In this document: positions 54,811 through 62,830 of the stretch, in pieces
Position numbering within the stretch: the stretch's first letter is position 1
Layout of the letters: the number at the start of each line of letters is the position of its first letter
Source of the DNA: Myxococcales bacterium
GTDB taxonomy: Bacteria > Myxococcota > Myxococcia > Myxococcales > Myxococcaceae
Assembly: GCA_020846875.1 (NCBI GenBank)
Contig: JADLDB010000030.1
Span: 1 to 64,000, forward strand
Reading direction: 5' to 3'
DNA length: 64,000 nucleotides
Position numbers and translations under genes: made by a program
Notes under the pieces: model-generated
The model's input: the letters and a program-made list of their open reading frames with translations, nothing else
Database searches by the model: none
What the model was told of the DNA's origin: nothing

Positions 54811-56148
<1,338 letters not shown>

Positions 56149-56160
56149 GCCTCGCCGCCC

Positions 56161-56528
56161 AAGGTGCGGCGTGAGGTGGAGACTGCTGCCGAAGTACTGC
56201 CAGAAGCACACGGCGCCGCCGGTGAGAGTGCCTTCGTGGCCGAGGCGGCGGGCCGTGGCGCGCTCAAGCCGCCAGACGGCGCCCACGAGGCGCATCTCGA
56301 GGCGCTTCAAGAGGGCGGGCTGCTTCACGACGTGGAAGCGCAGGGCAATGGGCAGACTCGACTCAGAAGCGTCCACTGGCGGTGGGGGACGCGGGGCAGC
56401 GTGGACTCGAGGTGGGCGCCGGTGTCCAGCGCGCGACGCGTGGTGCACGACGGGCACCAGCCGCGGCCCTTGCAGGAGAAGGCGACGAGGCGCGCGTCGT
56501 CGACGGCGCGCGAGGCCATCTCGGTCAT
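56161..56528 (-). mobile_element. IS91-family transposase remnant
   Basis: Read on the minus strand, 56528-56370 encodes a zinc-binding start region typical of IS91-type transposases (LVAFSCKGRGWCPSC, then LPRVPHRQWTLL). After a frameshift near 56365 the sequence continues in another frame as LPIALRFHVVKQPALLKRLE and GGAVCFWQYFGSSLHLTPHL, the next conserved transposase blocks. It then stops abruptly at 56161, beside the FHA gene, before the catalytic region. Only about 120 of an expected 350-400 residues remain, so it is dead. It joins the dipeptidase pseudogene at about 56510. Confidence 0.78.
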
Positions 56529-57891
56529 CGTGTCGCTGTCCGAGAAGTACGGCTACGCCAGCGAAGGCGAGCCCTTCTCGGTGGCGGACCCGAACGAGGT
56601 GTGGCTGTTCGAGTTCATCGGCAAGGGCCCGGGGAGCAAGGGCATCTTGTGGGTCGCCCGCAAGGTGCCCGACGGCCACATCAGCGGCCACGCGAACGCG
56701 GCGCGCATTCGCCAGTTCCCGCTGACGTCATCAGCTTCGCGCGCGCGAAGGGCCGGTTCACCGGCAAGGACTCCGAGTTCTCCTTCGCCGACGCCTACAA
56801 CCCGGAGGACTTCGGCGCCCGCCGGCTCTGTGACGCGCGCGTGTGGTGCATGTTCCAGCGCGCCGCCCCGAAGGCGAACGCCCCCGTGTCCTCGGTGACG
56901 GGCGTCGCCCGAAGGCCCCGCCGCTGCCGCTGTGGATCAAGCCCGAGCGCAAGCTGACCGTCAGCGACGTGATGGGCTTCATGCGCGACCACTTCGAGGG
57001 CACACCGCTGGACATGACGAAGGACGTGGGCGCCAGCCCCTAGCGCTGCCGTACCGCTGGCGGCCGCTGACGTGGAAGGCCGAAGGCCAGCAGTTCTTCA
57101 ACGAGCGCGCGGTGTCCACCCAGCAGACCGGCTTCTCCTTCGTCGCGCAGTCGCGCGGCTGGATGCTGGCGCCCATCGGCGGCGTGCTGTGGTTCGGCGT
57201 CGACGACACGGCGGCCACCGTCTACTTCCCCGTGTACGCGGGCAGCAGCGAGGTGTCGAAGCCCTTCGCGGTCGGCACCGGCTCCTTCCACCACGTCACG
57301 TGGGACGCGGCCTTCTGGGTCTTCAACCAGGTGTCGAACTACTCGTACCTGCGCTGGAGCGAGATGAGCCGCGACGTGCAGAAGGTGCAGGCCGAGCTCG
57401 AAGGGAAGTACCTGGCCGAGCAGGCAGAGGTGGACGGCGCGGCGCGCGCGCTGCACAAGCAGTCGCCGAAGCTGGCCCGCGACTACCTCACCCGCTCCTC
57501 GGTGGCCGCCGGCGACGAGGTGATGGCGCGCTGGCAGGAGCTGTCGAAGCAACTGCTCGACAAGTACCTGGACGGCAACCTGAAGGACGCCACCGGCAAG
57601 GTGACGCACCCCGGCTACCCCGAAGACTGGTACCGCACCGTCGCCAAGCCCACCGGCGAGAAGCTGCGCACCCACAAGCTGCCGGCCGAAGAGGCCGCCG
57701 AGCGCGAAGAAAAGGCGAAGGCGAAGGCCACCGCCGAGGGCATGTTGAAGCTGCTCGAGGCCCGCAGGCTCAAGGTGGACGCGAAGCTGCGCGAGCAGGT
57801 GCTGGCGACCGGCGACTTGAAGAAGCTGGAAGGCTGGCGGGTGAAGGCCGCTACCGCGAAGGCGGCGGCCGAGGTCATCGACGCGAAGTAG
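56509..57891 (+). pseudogene. C69-family dipeptidase, truncated and frameshifted
   Basis: Similarity to peptidase family C69 (PepD-like) runs through at least four pieces: 56509-56722 (EKYGYASEGEPFSVADPNEV), 56725-56900 in another frame (FSFADAYNPEDFGARRLC), 56905-57043 in a third (PLWIKPERKLTVSDVMGFMR, ending at a TAG) and 57048-57891 back in the first (LPYRWRPLTW, STQQTGFSFVAQSRGW). The last piece, intact for 280 codons, includes the C-terminal half. The N-terminus with the catalytic Cys is missing and the IS91 remnant lies in its place. Not a working enzyme. Confidence 0.82.
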
Positions 57892-57961
57892 CGCCGTCGG
57901 CGCGCCACGCGGCTACCGGGGCACGCCGGCCGTCGCTCGTCGTCGCTCGCGTGGGCGTACC

Positions 57962-60331
57962 TCATTGAATCGGCAACCGGAGCGCCAGCAAATAGCTGAC
58001 GAGTCCGCCCGGAACCGGCAGCACATGGGTGCCGAACGACGTGCTCGACGTGACAGGCGGGCTCGAGGATGCCTGGAGCGGCATGAGGAGCGTCTGCCCA
58101 GCGAGCGCAGTGTTCGCCAGCCCCCTGAAGCGGTCCACGTCATTCACCATTCCTGCGAGGCAGGTGCCCCACGTCATCCGCCCAGTCTGACTGTCATGGG
58201 TCGTGATCCAGACATGGTAGGGCCTTGAACCCGTGGACGGCGGGCACTCGACCGTCAGCCCATCTCTCGATTGGAAGCCGCGAGCCCACCCGCCGGATGC
58301 GGACCAGATGCCAACGAGCGTCTGTCCGCTCGAGAGGACTCGGTAGGGAATCAGGCCCTCGAGGGCTGCGGGGGGCCGTGTCTCCACCGGCAGCACCGGA
58401 ATCTCCCAACGCCGGTTCAGATTGGCATCGAACGAGTGCAGGTTGAGTTCGGTGCGCTCGGTCGGCGGGAACGCGGTCGATGTTTGAAAGAACAGGGAGT
58501 CGCCGTTCGAGAGGAGCGGGGTCCCGTAGTAGAAGCGACCGACTGTCGCGGGCTCGGCAACGGCCTCGACCAACCGGCTGCACGCCATGCCTAGACTGAC
58601 CCGCGCAAGATACGGCATGCCCCTGAAGGATGAGGTGGGCGCGCAGGATGCTGCCGGAAGCGGAGCCCCCGCGACGAACAGCATCGCCGGGCCGGCCGAG
58701 GTCGTCGCGAAGCTGGCGCTGAAAGCTGGAACCGGCTCATAGCTCTGACTGGCCCACTGGCCCGAGAAGGTCCCGAGTCCAGACGATCCCTGCGAGTATC
58801 CTCCATCCAGCAGCGTGCCGCTCGAGTCCCTGAAGTGAAGGCCGAAGCGGCCTTCCCCGAGCGCTGCCGCCCCCTCCGTCGTCACAGTGACGAGCGAGTC
58901 GGGAAGACTCGCCGGAACCACCGCGAAGGACGTGGGTTGGAACTGTGCCTCGTCAAACTCAAGCAGCGCGAACTCGGGCCGAGACCGCTCCGGCACGCTC
59001 GCGTCCACCGTGCCCCAACGAATGGCCGAGCGCGGCGCCATGCCGATGGGCACGTTGCGCATCGGGCCGGCGACCAGCAGCCGTCCGTCAGGCACTTCGA
59101 TGAACTCCGGCGGTTCCAGACCACGACCGGCCGCGGAAGCAGAAACCCGGCCTGCCCCACCGTCGAGCGCGATTTCCGCGACGGCCGACCCCCCGACGGC
59201 CAACGGCAGCCACGACGGCAGAGGACCAGCACCTGCTGGCGTGCTGAGCTTGAACGCGACGAGAAAGCCCCCGTCGCGCGCCACGACGTCAGTCCCGAGT
59301 GCCCCGTCGAGCTGCAGGACCCAGTCGTAGAACCGCTGCACCCGGACCTTTCCATTGACGGAATGGGGCGGCGACACGCGGCACTCGTCGACGCGCCTGG
59401 CAGGCGCACAGTCCAGCCCGTCGAAGCCGACCACGACGTCGTCTGGTCCAGCGACACCGAGAATGTGCACCTCGGTGCCGCGGGGGACCAGCGCCTCCCA
59501 CGGCAACACGACCGAGGCTCCGTTGACGAGGGCGCCAGCGACTGTGTCACCTTCGCCCTCCAGCGTCACTCGCACTCGCGGTACGAACGTGACGTCGAAG
59601 AGCGCGTCGACCGACGAGGTGCACGTCACGCCGGCGCATCGAGCCGGCGTGTTCCACAGCACGAGGTCCATCAGCGGGTCCGCGGGTTCGGCGACCGCGG
59701 TCAGCTCTGCGAGTGCTGCCGCTCGGCCGCTGCAGGTCGACTCGGCCGGGCAGACGATACCGGCCGCCTCGACACGCACCACGCCGCTGCCATGGGTCCG
59801 CACAGTGACGAGGCGCTCGCCGGAGGTGACGGTAATCTTGCGCGGACGATTTGAAATGAACGTACACTGCTCGCCCAGCACCGAGTCGCAGTCGCCGGAG
59901 AAGGACACAAGCACGCCGCTCGGGGAGACCGCGCGAACCGCGCCGGAAGCGCCGATGGGAATGACGGATTCGCACCAGCCGACGCAGCGTTCGCCGAGCG
60001 GCTCCACTGTCACCTCATGCAGCTCAGCTGCGGTCGCATCGACGATGAGCGGCCAGCCCACGCGGCGAAAGCGCGCAGCTCCAGCTTCAGAGGCCACGCA
60101 ACTCCGCGCAGTGCCGCAGCGCCCGGACCACTCCACGAAGGCACACTCCGGCGTATCTGCGGCCACGACCAACGCGTCTGAGGCGAGGTCCGCGCAGCCA
60201 TCTGATGGGCAGCGCTCGGAGCCGACGAACAGGCTGCCTTCACAGTCGCCCGTCTGCCCGACCGACCAACGCGCTCCACACCCAGCGACCAGAACAGCCA
60301 CGCTGGCGAGCGTGCAGCACCGCCAGGTCAT
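57962..60331 (-). CDS. Large lipoprotein of unknown function
   Basis: 789 aa from ATG 60331, which overlaps the upstream stop (ATGA) and gives a clean lipoprotein signal (LASVAVLVAGC). The first ~320 residues are Cys-rich beta modules (for example CAFVEWSGRCGTARSC, VSFSGDCDSV), then a region of beta-propeller-like repeats (DGGFLVAFKLSTPAG, PDGRLLVAGPM, YGTPLLSNGDSLFF). The DNA is visibly less GC-rich than its neighbours, which suggests transfer. I recognise no family; cell-surface binding or structure is a guess. Confidence 0.75.
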   Translation of the reverse strand: MTWRCCTLASVAVLVAGCGARWSVGQTGDCEGSLFVGSERCPSDGCADLASDALVVAADTPECAFVEWSGRCGTARSCVASEAGAARFRRVGWPLIVDATAAELHEVTVEPLGERCVGWCESVIPIGASGAVRAVSPSGVLVSFSGDCDSVLGEQCTFISNRPRKITVTSGERLVTVRTHGSGVVRVEAAGIVCPAESTCSGRAAALAELTAVAEPADPLMDLVLWNTPARCAGVTCTSSVDALFDVTFVPRVRVTLEGEGDTVAGALVNGASVVLPWEALVPRGTEVHILGVAGPDDVVVGFDGLDCAPARRVDECRVSPPHSVNGKVRVQRFYDWVLQLDGALGTDVVARDGGFLVAFKLSTPAGAGPLPSWLPLAVGGSAVAEIALDGGAGRVSASAAGRGLEPPEFIEVPDGRLLVAGPMRNVPIGMAPRSAIRWGTVDASVPERSRPEFALLEFDEAQFQPTSFAVVPASLPDSLVTVTTEGAAALGEGRFGLHFRDSSGTLLDGGYSQGSSGLGTFSGQWASQSYEPVPAFSASFATTSAGPAMLFVAGAPLPAASCAPTSSFRGMPYLARVSLGMACSRLVEAVAEPATVGRFYYGTPLLSNGDSLFFQTSTAFPPTERTELNLHSFDANLNRRWEIPVLPVETRPPAALEGLIPYRVLSSGQTLVGIWSASGGWARGFQSRDGLTVECPPSTGSRPYHVWITTHDSQTGRMTWGTCLAGMVNDVDRFRGLANTALAGQTLLMPLQASSSPPVTSSTSFGTHVLPVPGGLVSYLLALRLPIQ

Positions 60332-60846
60332 CGAAGCACCGCACTGTCGAGAACGTAGTCGCCCCCCCACTCGAGCTGCTTCGGGTCCGGGCAATAGTAC
60401 GCGCCATAGCACCACGCCCTCGGGTCCTGATTCGCAGGCAGAGTCGGCAAGTCGAGTACCTCTCTCCCATTGACGAGCGCTTGCACTTTCGCGCTGGCCC
60501 CGAATGCGTTCTCACAATCGGAGGTTCCTGCGCCGATCGCGCTGGTCTTCATGAAGAGCCCGTTGAACATGAACGAGTCGTTCATCTCCGTCCTAAACGA
60601 AAACCCAGTCAGCGCGCAGGGCGACGCCCCTCCGTACGGCGAGTTGAGGTTGAGAGTTGTGGCCACGGGAATCAGTTGGACCGGCGCACCAGTGAGCGAA
60701 CAATCGGTCTGTACCAGGGGCCTGACCGCGATGTTGGCGTCAGCGAAAACGGCGACATAGTCCGCCGAACAACCGGTGAACTGTGGCCCAGGACGATTGC
60801 CCTCCAGGCGACAGTTGAGTGCCACATCCGCGCCGGCCTGCGTCAC
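60328..60846 (-). CDS. Cys-rich protein, probable 3' half of a frameshifted gene
   Basis: 172 aa from the formal GTG 60846. Seven cysteines and no signal peptide. Upstream of that GTG the same frame keeps reading as plausible protein back to about 60990 (ELGPYVGLPWTCGLHVQTEQ, then GVNLASFEFFATPVV), while the overlapping end of the upstream gene in the other frame reads as low-complexity Arg/Ser. I infer that this and the next gene are one broken gene of about 410 codons. It overlaps the downstream lipoprotein gene as ATGA. Confidence 0.55.
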   Translation of the reverse strand: MTQAGADVALNCRLEGNRPGPQFTGCSADYVAVFADANIAVRPLVQTDCSLTGAPVQLIPVATTLNLNSPYGGASPCALTGFSFRTEMNDSFMFNGLFMKTSAIGAGTSDCENAFGASAKVQALVNGREVLDLPTLPANQDPRAWCYGAYYCPDPKQLEWGGDYVLDSAVLR

Positions 60847-61574
60847 AACAGGCGTCGCGAAGAACTCGAAACTCGCGAGATTGACGCCCTGCGGGCTTCC
60901 TCCTGGGGTGAGGCCCTGCTCCGTCTGTACGTGAAGGCCGCAAGTCCAAGGTAGGCCAACGTAAGGCCCGAGTTCGTCGTCAGAGCTTTGAGACCTCCAG
61001 CCGAAGGGCCCGGACCGGAAACACCGTGGCTGAACGGCTCGACCGAAACAAACACCGAGTACGACGGGTCCACTGCAACGACTTCGATCCCAATGAGCAG
61101 ATCACGATGTTCGGGCGAGAAGTACTCGGGCGCCCCTGCGGCGTTGAACCGGTACTTGAGATCGATCACCAACTCCGGGCCAGTGGGTGGATGCTCGACC
61201 CGCTGGCCAGACAGCGCGTAGGAGAGGTGGTGAATCTGTTCGACCCACTCCTCTGGAGCCTGCTCCCAGTTCACCGACCACTGGTACCACGCGGTGATGT
61301 AGGCGGCAGCGTGCTCGAATGCGACTTTCCCGCGGGGTCTGCAAACACCACTGGACACCAGAAGCGGAATGCGGAGCTCCCCGGAGCACTCTCCATCCGG
61401 TGAGCTGCATCGGGCGGCGATCGTTCGTGACAGCACGACGATGGCTGCTTGGCTATCGCACTTGTCGGAACCAGCCGATGTGACACTCATCCAATCAAAG
61501 GATTGCGCTATTGCGTTTGGTGCGGGCAATACGAGCAAAACCCCCAGGAACACACCAAGCGAACGCATACGCAT
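60843..61574 (-). CDS. Exported protein, probable 5' half of a frameshifted gene
   Basis: 243 aa from ATG 61574 (AGAAGG 7 nt upstream). A signal peptide (LGVFLGVLLVLPAPNAIA) is followed by a ~175-residue mixed domain (for example VAFEHAAAYITAWYQWSVNW, LVIDLKYRFNAAGAPEYF). From about residue 195 the frame turns into a Ser/Arg-rich tail (SISRVSSSSRRLL) that looks non-coding, whereas the +1 frame continues as sensible protein into the next gene. Family not recognised. It heads the three-ORF run with lower GC. Confidence 0.6.
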   Translation of the reverse strand: MRMRSLGVFLGVLLVLPAPNAIAQSFDWMSVTSAGSDKCDSQAAIVVLSRTIAARCSSPDGECSGELRIPLLVSSGVCRPRGKVAFEHAAAYITAWYQWSVNWEQAPEEWVEQIHHLSYALSGQRVEHPPTGPELVIDLKYRFNAAGAPEYFSPEHRDLLIGIEVVAVDPSYSVFVSVEPFSHGVSGPGPSAGGLKALTTNSGLTLAYLGLAAFTYRRSRASPQEEARRASISRVSSSSRRLL

Positions 61575-61749
61575 GACTGAGCCTTCTTGTGATGGGGCCA
61601 CTCGACAAACGAAACAGCTAACGAAGAGGACCGTAGGCGATCAGCTCGTGCGTCATCAACCAGCTCGCGACCTGGCCAAACGTGTCTCGCTCTGGAACTG
61701 ACGCGTCGCGTTGGCCCTCGCTGTGGTTGGGCTCGAGGTCACCGCGTAC
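61575..61749. other. Intergenic region with a possible gene-end remnant
   Basis: No intact gene. On the minus strand 61680-61618 reads FGQVASWLMTHELIAYGPL before a stop, which looks like the last residues of a real protein cut off by rearrangement, but it is too short to name. The rest shows nothing. Confidence 0.3.
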
Positions 61750-61856
61750 TCCACGCAGCAGACCGGCTTCTCCTTCGTGACACAGTCGCACGGCTGCCGG
61801 CGCCCATCGGCGGCGTGCTGTGATTCGGCCTCGACGACACGGCGGCCACCGTCTAC
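61750..61856 (+). repeat. Second, decayed copy of a dipeptidase segment
   Basis: These 107 bases match 57115-57225 inside the C69 pseudogene with about eight mismatches and one 4-nt gap. The copy has lost its frame and gained a TGA (TGG to TGA). It ends exactly where the Asp-Ala-Gly repeat tract of the neighbouring lipoprotein gene begins, and that gene's TAG stop (61853-61855) lies within it. Confidence 0.88.
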
Positions 61857-62710
61857 CCCGCGTCGGTATCACCCGCGTCGGCACCCGCGTCCGGTTGGCC
61901 CGCGTCCGGTTGGCCCGCGTCCGGTTGGCCCGCGTCCGGCTGGCCCGCGTCCGGCTGGCCCGCATCCGGCTGGCCCGCGTCGGGCTGGCCTGCGTCGGGC
62001 TGGCCTGCGTCGGGCTGGCCTGCGTCTGGCTGACCCGCGTCCGGCTGACCCGCGTCCGGCTGACCCGCGTCCGGCTGACCCGCGTCCGGCTGGCCCGCGT
62101 CCGGCCGACCTGCGTCCGGCCGACCTGCGTCCGGCTGACCTGCGTCCGGGATGGGCGGGATCTCGATGACGCCCGAGTCCTCCTTCATCCCCGCGTCACC
62201 CTCCATAGGGATTCCACCGTCCGGCAGGCGATCGGCTCGCAGGACGATGAAGGGCGAGAGGTGATCGATCTCCCCGCTGATCTCGTTGCGCACCCGGTCC
62301 ACGAAGGAACTGGCCAGCGGCTGCCACCCGTCATTGGTCGCCCCCTCCGTCCAGGTGTAGATGCGCATCAGGCTCTCGTTGGGCACCGAGTCCTGTTGGA
62401 CCAGGTCCAGCGAGAAGATCACCCGCGCCGGCTTGAGGAAGGTAACCCGGGTGCTGCCCGTCGGAGAGATGTCATAGCCGGGGCTGAGCGCCCCTCCGGG
62501 GATCTCGCCGGACATGGGCGCGATGCGGAAGCTCTCGTAGTCGGCCAGGCCGCCGGGCGGCACCTCGAGGCAGACGGTGCGATCGGGCAGACAGATGGTC
62601 CCGCCGGTGGGATCGAGGCCCCCATCCACGGTGGTGCCTCCGCACCCCGACCACAGGACCAACACCAGCACGGGGACGACGAGGAGCCAGCGGAGCCGGG
62701 ACGTGCGCAC
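61853..62710 (-). CDS. Lipoprotein with C-terminal Asp-Ala-Gly-Gln-Pro repeats
   Basis: 285 aa from GTG 62710, which gives a textbook lipoprotein signal (LLVVPVLVLVLWSGC); GTG 62761 with AAGGA upstream is the alternative and adds 17 residues. A ~150-residue beta-rich domain follows (ICLPDRTVCLEVPPGG, FLKPARVIFSLDLVQQ, SPFIVLRADRLPDGG), resembling the ZU5/LbR-like strand pattern seen in myxobacterial surface proteins but not assignable. The tail is about 18 DAGQP/DAGRP units and ends in DAGADAGDTDAG at a stop supplied by the dipeptidase fragment. Confidence 0.75.
   Translation of the reverse strand: MRTSRLRWLLVVPVLVLVLWSGCGGTTVDGGLDPTGGTICLPDRTVCLEVPPGGLADYESFRIAPMSGEIPGGALSPGYDISPTGSTRVTFLKPARVIFSLDLVQQDSVPNESLMRIYTWTEGATNDGWQPLASSFVDRVRNEISGEIDHLSPFIVLRADRLPDGGIPMEGDAGMKEDSGVIEIPPIPDAGQPDAGRPDAGRPDAGQPDAGQPDAGQPDAGQPDAGQPDAGQPDAGQPDAGQPDAGQPDAGQPDAGQPDAGQPDAGQPDAGQPDAGADAGDTDAG
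61870..62140 (-). repeat. 15-bp tandem repeat coding for Asp-Ala-Gly-Gln/Arg-Pro
   Basis: About 18 copies of a 15-bp unit (plus strand: GCGTCCGGCTGGCCC with variants at a few positions). The units keep frame and vary mostly at silent or Gln/Arg sites, pointing to expansion by slippage or unequal crossover. Copy number is likely to differ between strains. Confidence 0.9.
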
Positions 62711-62830
62711 GGAGAGCGAGCATAGACCTGCCCGGGGATCGGGGCACCACCGTTTGCCCACTCAAGTCCTTGACCCCTGCCCCAACCGCGCCAAAGTCGG
62801 GCTCTTCTTTCCTCGAAAGGGAGCCCTCTC

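Follow-up and report, generated by a model that had tools for sequence, protein, structure and literature searches.

The short spacer that separates two convergent genes most likely holds a composite, lineage-specific insertion that was put together through several illegitimate (non-homologous) joins, a reading to which we assign a probability of roughly 0.7. The window analysed here is a 64,000-nt stretch of one contig of a draft genome. From left to right, the insert contains a fragment of an IS91-type transposase gene, a C69 dipeptidase pseudogene, a block of two genes and a small scrap of dipeptidase DNA (Table 1).

Table 1 Features of the lineage-specific interval and of the two genes that flank it
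Feature	Position	Strand	Evidence or remark
Left flank: sigma-54-dependent activator (FHA + AAA+ + Fis-type HTH)	54811..56148	+	Pfam; orthologues 78-87% identity in relatives
Lineage-specific interval between two convergent stop codons	56149..61852	.	5,704 nt here vs 3-304 nt in eight relatives
IS91-type transposase gene fragment, 341 bp	56162..56502	-	91% to contig C173; Pfam Zn_Tnp_IS91 match
C69 dipeptidase pseudogene	56503..57891	+	84% DNA identity to intact C8 paralogue
Second block gene: 789-aa predicted lipoprotein, LVAGC lipobox	57962..60331	-	No Pfam/NCBIfam match
First block gene: secreted protein, apparently broken by one frameshift	60331..61601	-	Homologue beside lipoprotein homologue in L103
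Non-coding upstream region of block, 141 bases	61602..61742	.	No similarity to dipeptidase locus found
Dipeptidase gene scrap, 114 bp, copy of segment now at 57108-57225	61743..61856	+	Repeat comparison
Right flank: Asp-Ala-Gly-repeat lipoprotein gene	61853..62761	-	Stop codon 61853-61855 inside dipeptidase scrap

The insertion site in related genomes

On the left side, the activator is adjoined by the isocitrate and malate dehydrogenase genes, and its stop codon is the final ancestral landmark ahead of the insertion. On the right side, a predicted lipoprotein with a long Asp-Ala-Gly-rich repeat tail is encoded on the opposite strand. The tail is a 15-nt tandem repeat whose length differs among relatives. 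This gene resembles the other predicted Asp-Ala-Gly-repeat lipoproteins of the lineage in being kept beside the activator in eight relatives, but it differs from them in that its stop codon sits in inserted dipeptidase DNA.

Relatives were searched with the activator, and the DNA downstream of it was then read in each genome. The order of isocitrate dehydrogenase (IDH), activator, short spacer and convergent Asp-Ala-Gly-repeat lipoprotein was common to eight relatives, representing six genera, none of which is the genus of the source genome. The stop-to-stop spacers in these genomes were 62 nt (G076), 3 nt (G078), 93 nt (G079), 150 nt (G138), 248 nt (G018), 69 nt (G002), 304 nt (G013) and 94 nt (G001), whereas the same two stop codons are separated by 5,704 nt in the window. 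The dipeptidase, the IS91 piece and the block were all absent behind the activator in the relatives examined, which comprised these eight as well as G005, G004 and a second G138 locus. This difference in spacer length marks the whole interval as an insertion specific to this lineage, and the sequence comparisons strongly support insertion on the branch of the source genome as the sole economical reading. An earlier sequence-only reading of the window had proposed looking for an empty site in related genomes; eight of them show one, and the insertion is borne out. Relatives carrying the block and both dipeptidase copies as intact genes, which would have spoken against it, were looked for and none was found.

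It should be noted that other genes were found behind the activator in G004 (L048) and at the second G138 activator locus (L120), so the spacer does vary and may often accept insertions. In G005, the activator is followed by a different repeat protein, and a small frame was present in G013 (L050).

The dipeptidase pseudogene, the two-gene block and the scrap

Two pieces of the pseudogene match the Peptidase_C69 profile (Pfam PF03577; E-values of 2.9e-13 and 3.2e-11), placing it with the C69 family dipeptidases (PF03577; NCBIfam NF033678). However, the window copy differs from the family in lacking the first ~132 residues of the N-terminus, among them the Cys predicted to act as nucleophile, and in carrying three frame-breaking indels. 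This Cys is presumably the catalytic nucleophile, and the piece probably yields no active enzyme. An intact paralogue, identified by reading its open reading frame, is present on contig C8 of the same genome and matches NF033678 below the cut-off. Over the open 3' half, the pseudogene and the C8 gene show a dS of 0.35 and a dN of 0.13 (ratio 0.37), so that selection acted on both lineages for much of the time since they separated. In a weakly supported grouping, the two copies fall together beside those of G078 and G079. The pseudogene has a native-like GC3 of 0.96. Given the constraint on its lineage and its divergence from C8, the pseudogene is an ancient paralogue that has since died rather than a newly made copy.

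The dipeptidase gene had been described as split around the block. Instead, it is truncated at its 5' end and broken in frame, and it keeps its own 3' end, with a stop codon at 57891. Insertion of the block into a resident dipeptidase gene was also rejected, since a dipeptidase is missing from this site in every relative examined and the block thus had no resident gene to split.

The dipeptidase stop codon is separated from the block operon by 70 nt. The large gene of the block has a GC3 of 0.79 and the two smaller frames have values of 0.74 and 0.675, compared with a mean of 0.905 (SD 0.066, n = 37) for the other genes of the window; codon adaptation of the block is also low, in agreement with its earlier description as less GC-rich. 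However, low GC3 is not confined to the block, because a few other frames in the window have values of 0.69-0.78, and composition alone is therefore no proof of foreign origin. The high GC3 and past constraint of the pseudogene, set against the low GC3 of the block, point to different histories for the two.

The secreted-protein gene is read in two frames (60331-60846 and 60843-61601), with a likely start near 61574 and a predicted signal peptide ending in AIA-Q. Homologues of the lipoprotein with 31-35% identity were found twice in G078 (L102 and L103) and once in G139 (L104), at loci unrelated to the window site, and a partial homologue with 27% identity is present in the source genome itself (L105). 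On contig C22 of G078 (L103), the lipoprotein homologue is immediately preceded by a gene homologous to that of the secreted protein. This identical gene order indicates that the pair constitutes a small accessory cassette in these bacteria; judged by the same comparison, the secreted-protein gene of the window seems to be frameshifted. A search for further relatives of the secreted protein confirmed none in the genome contigs and found none in 38 other genomes. Neither protein matched a Pfam or NCBIfam family, the AlphaFold model of the lipoprotein was unusable (mean pLDDT of 36), and no structured RNA was detected in the region at Rfam gathering thresholds. A phage- or plasmid-borne block was rejected, as the block DNA had no match among plasmids and the lipoprotein had none among phages. 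Of the block genes, only the one for the predicted lipoprotein remains intact, whether or not it is expressed.

The repeat noted earlier at 57115-57225 and 61750-61856 is real and slightly longer, covering 57108-57225 and 61743-61856. The two segments differ at 12 of 114 aligned bases and by a gap of 4 bases. Their match scores 127 bits, whereas 60 random 114-mers of the window reached no more than 49.9 bits in matches elsewhere in the window. The last bases of the scrap provide the stop codon of the right-flank lipoprotein gene. The scrap differs less from the pseudogene (12/114) than from the C8 gene (18/114). The proposal of two ancestral paralogues is supported for the pseudogene and the intact C8 gene, but not for the origin of the two copies in the window. 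Furthermore, at three sites where the pseudogene has changed, the scrap has the base common to most relatives, which led us to reject a recent origin of the scrap from the pseudogene in its current form. The scrap would have been copied from the ancestor of the pseudogene or from a close sister, and not recently.

For the scrap alone, one variant of the composite insertion, which does not exclude it, is a tandem duplication of the 3' part of the dipeptidase gene together with the operon once the insertion was in place, followed by a deletion up to the lipoprotein gene that took away most of the second copy and left the 114 bp. The scrap has the strand and order expected from such a duplication, lies directly upstream of the operon and is closer to the pseudogene than to C8. 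However, no trace of a second operon copy accompanies these 114 bp, positions 61602-61742 show no similarity to the dipeptidase locus, and the three bases shared with most relatives argue against a recent copy. We consider this variant possible but doubtful.

The IS91 fragment and its joins

The fragment corresponds approximately to residues 66-170 of the longer copy on contig C173, from the zinc-finger region to a point immediately ahead of the HUH motif, and begins thirteen bases past the activator stop codon. Alignment to the C173 copy and other copies showed that both ends are internal to the transposase gene, and that oriIS, terIS and the catalytic region (HUH and Y2 motifs) are absent from the fragment. 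The fragment joins the dipeptidase at 56502/56503, and at most ~1-2 nt are shared at both of its joins. A search of the source genome with PF04986 (Y2_Tnp) gave no match in this contig, and the IS91 copies found in the draft genome were all broken, at differing points. The truncated IS91-type transposase recognised by the sequence-only reading is thus present and abuts a dipeptidase without its front, but it is a mid-gene piece with neither element end, and the suggested search for IS91 terminal sequences at the joins found none.

That reading had proposed rolling-circle capture, or duplication with one-ended transposition, to explain the layout. In such a scheme, one-ended transposition of an IS91 element would have brought the dipeptidase and the block, with the element ends lost later. 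IS91-family elements are known to mobilise adjacent DNA (PMC3189936). The orientation of the fragment fits, with the oriIS side of the transposase toward the old chromosome and the terIS side toward the carried genes. In addition, CAAG, a target tetranucleotide of the IS91 family, occupies 56160-56163, exactly at the left join and in the expected orientation, although oriIS is absent. However, one-ended products of the family are recognised by an intact right end (oriIS) and a boundary at GAAC, GGAC, CAAG or CGAC (PMC3189936), whereas the window fragment has neither element end and is cut off at the codons of the HUH motif. The scheme would call for two distinct deletions at a later time, one of them reaching exactly to CAAG, and no GAAC/CAAG-type tetranucleotide was found within 15 nt of the right-hand joins on either strand. 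Moreover, most IS801 fragments in Pseudomonas syringae genomes were attributed to DNA reorganisation and not to one-ended transposition (PMC3189936). With only relics among the IS91 copies found in the genome, capture of this kind is unlikely, and carriage by an IS91 transposon cannot be shown.

The truncated IS801/IS91-family fragments of P. syringae are similar to the window fragment in that both are partial IS91-family sequences beside rearranged genes (PMC3189936). However, the one-ended products in P. syringae keep the right end (PMC3189936), which the window fragment lacks, and the latter, unlike the P. syringae case, occupies a spacer flanked by convergent genes in a bacterium that gene content and genome size mark as a probable myxobacterium.

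CGAC is found on the minus strand at 56502, the other end of the fragment; single matches of this kind are plausible by chance given the densities of these tetranucleotides. Another IS91 relic, on contig C176 (L024 6727), is cut 1 nt before GTTC. From the measured densities, the chance of a match within two bases is ~5% per join, and the remaining relics had nothing as close. Broken copies without oriIS might be moved or trimmed by an IS91-type activity at GTTC/CTTG and ferry neighbouring genes, an idea that we regard as very unlikely. If such relics were still moved in this way, the two of five that end at such a tetranucleotide would represent a signature and not chance. We treat CAAG at the left join as an unexplained coincidence, while leaving room for a minor role of IS91 activity.

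Assembly and persistence of the patchwork

The genome is a 200-contig draft, which speaks for a chimera produced during assembly. However, every join lies within one 72-kb contig. The closest copies of the pieces elsewhere in the genome show 83-91% identity, which means that there are no long exact repeats of the type that confuses assemblers; an assembly chimera is thus highly improbable. An ancestral interval lost in the relatives is barely tenable, since no point in its favour was found, parallel loss with restored short spacers would be needed in eight genomes of six genera, and the composition of the block is unlike that of the flanks.

Under the composite insertion, the DNA would have arrived piecemeal or as already rearranged material, and several illegitimate joins would have assembled the patchwork in the spacer. 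At the far join, the scrap may represent templated filler or what remained of a duplication. Because insertions between two gene ends would harm neither neighbour, the region would then have persisted at a neutral site.

We regard the 5.7-kb patchwork as ordinary genome wear that shows no new mechanism. An IS91 fragment beside rearranged genes is by itself no evidence of IS91-mediated capture. The secreted protein and lipoprotein form a cassette that matches no described family and is accessory in these genomes. The interval represents a clean, well-bounded case of a convergent-gene spacer gathering dead and foreign pieces.
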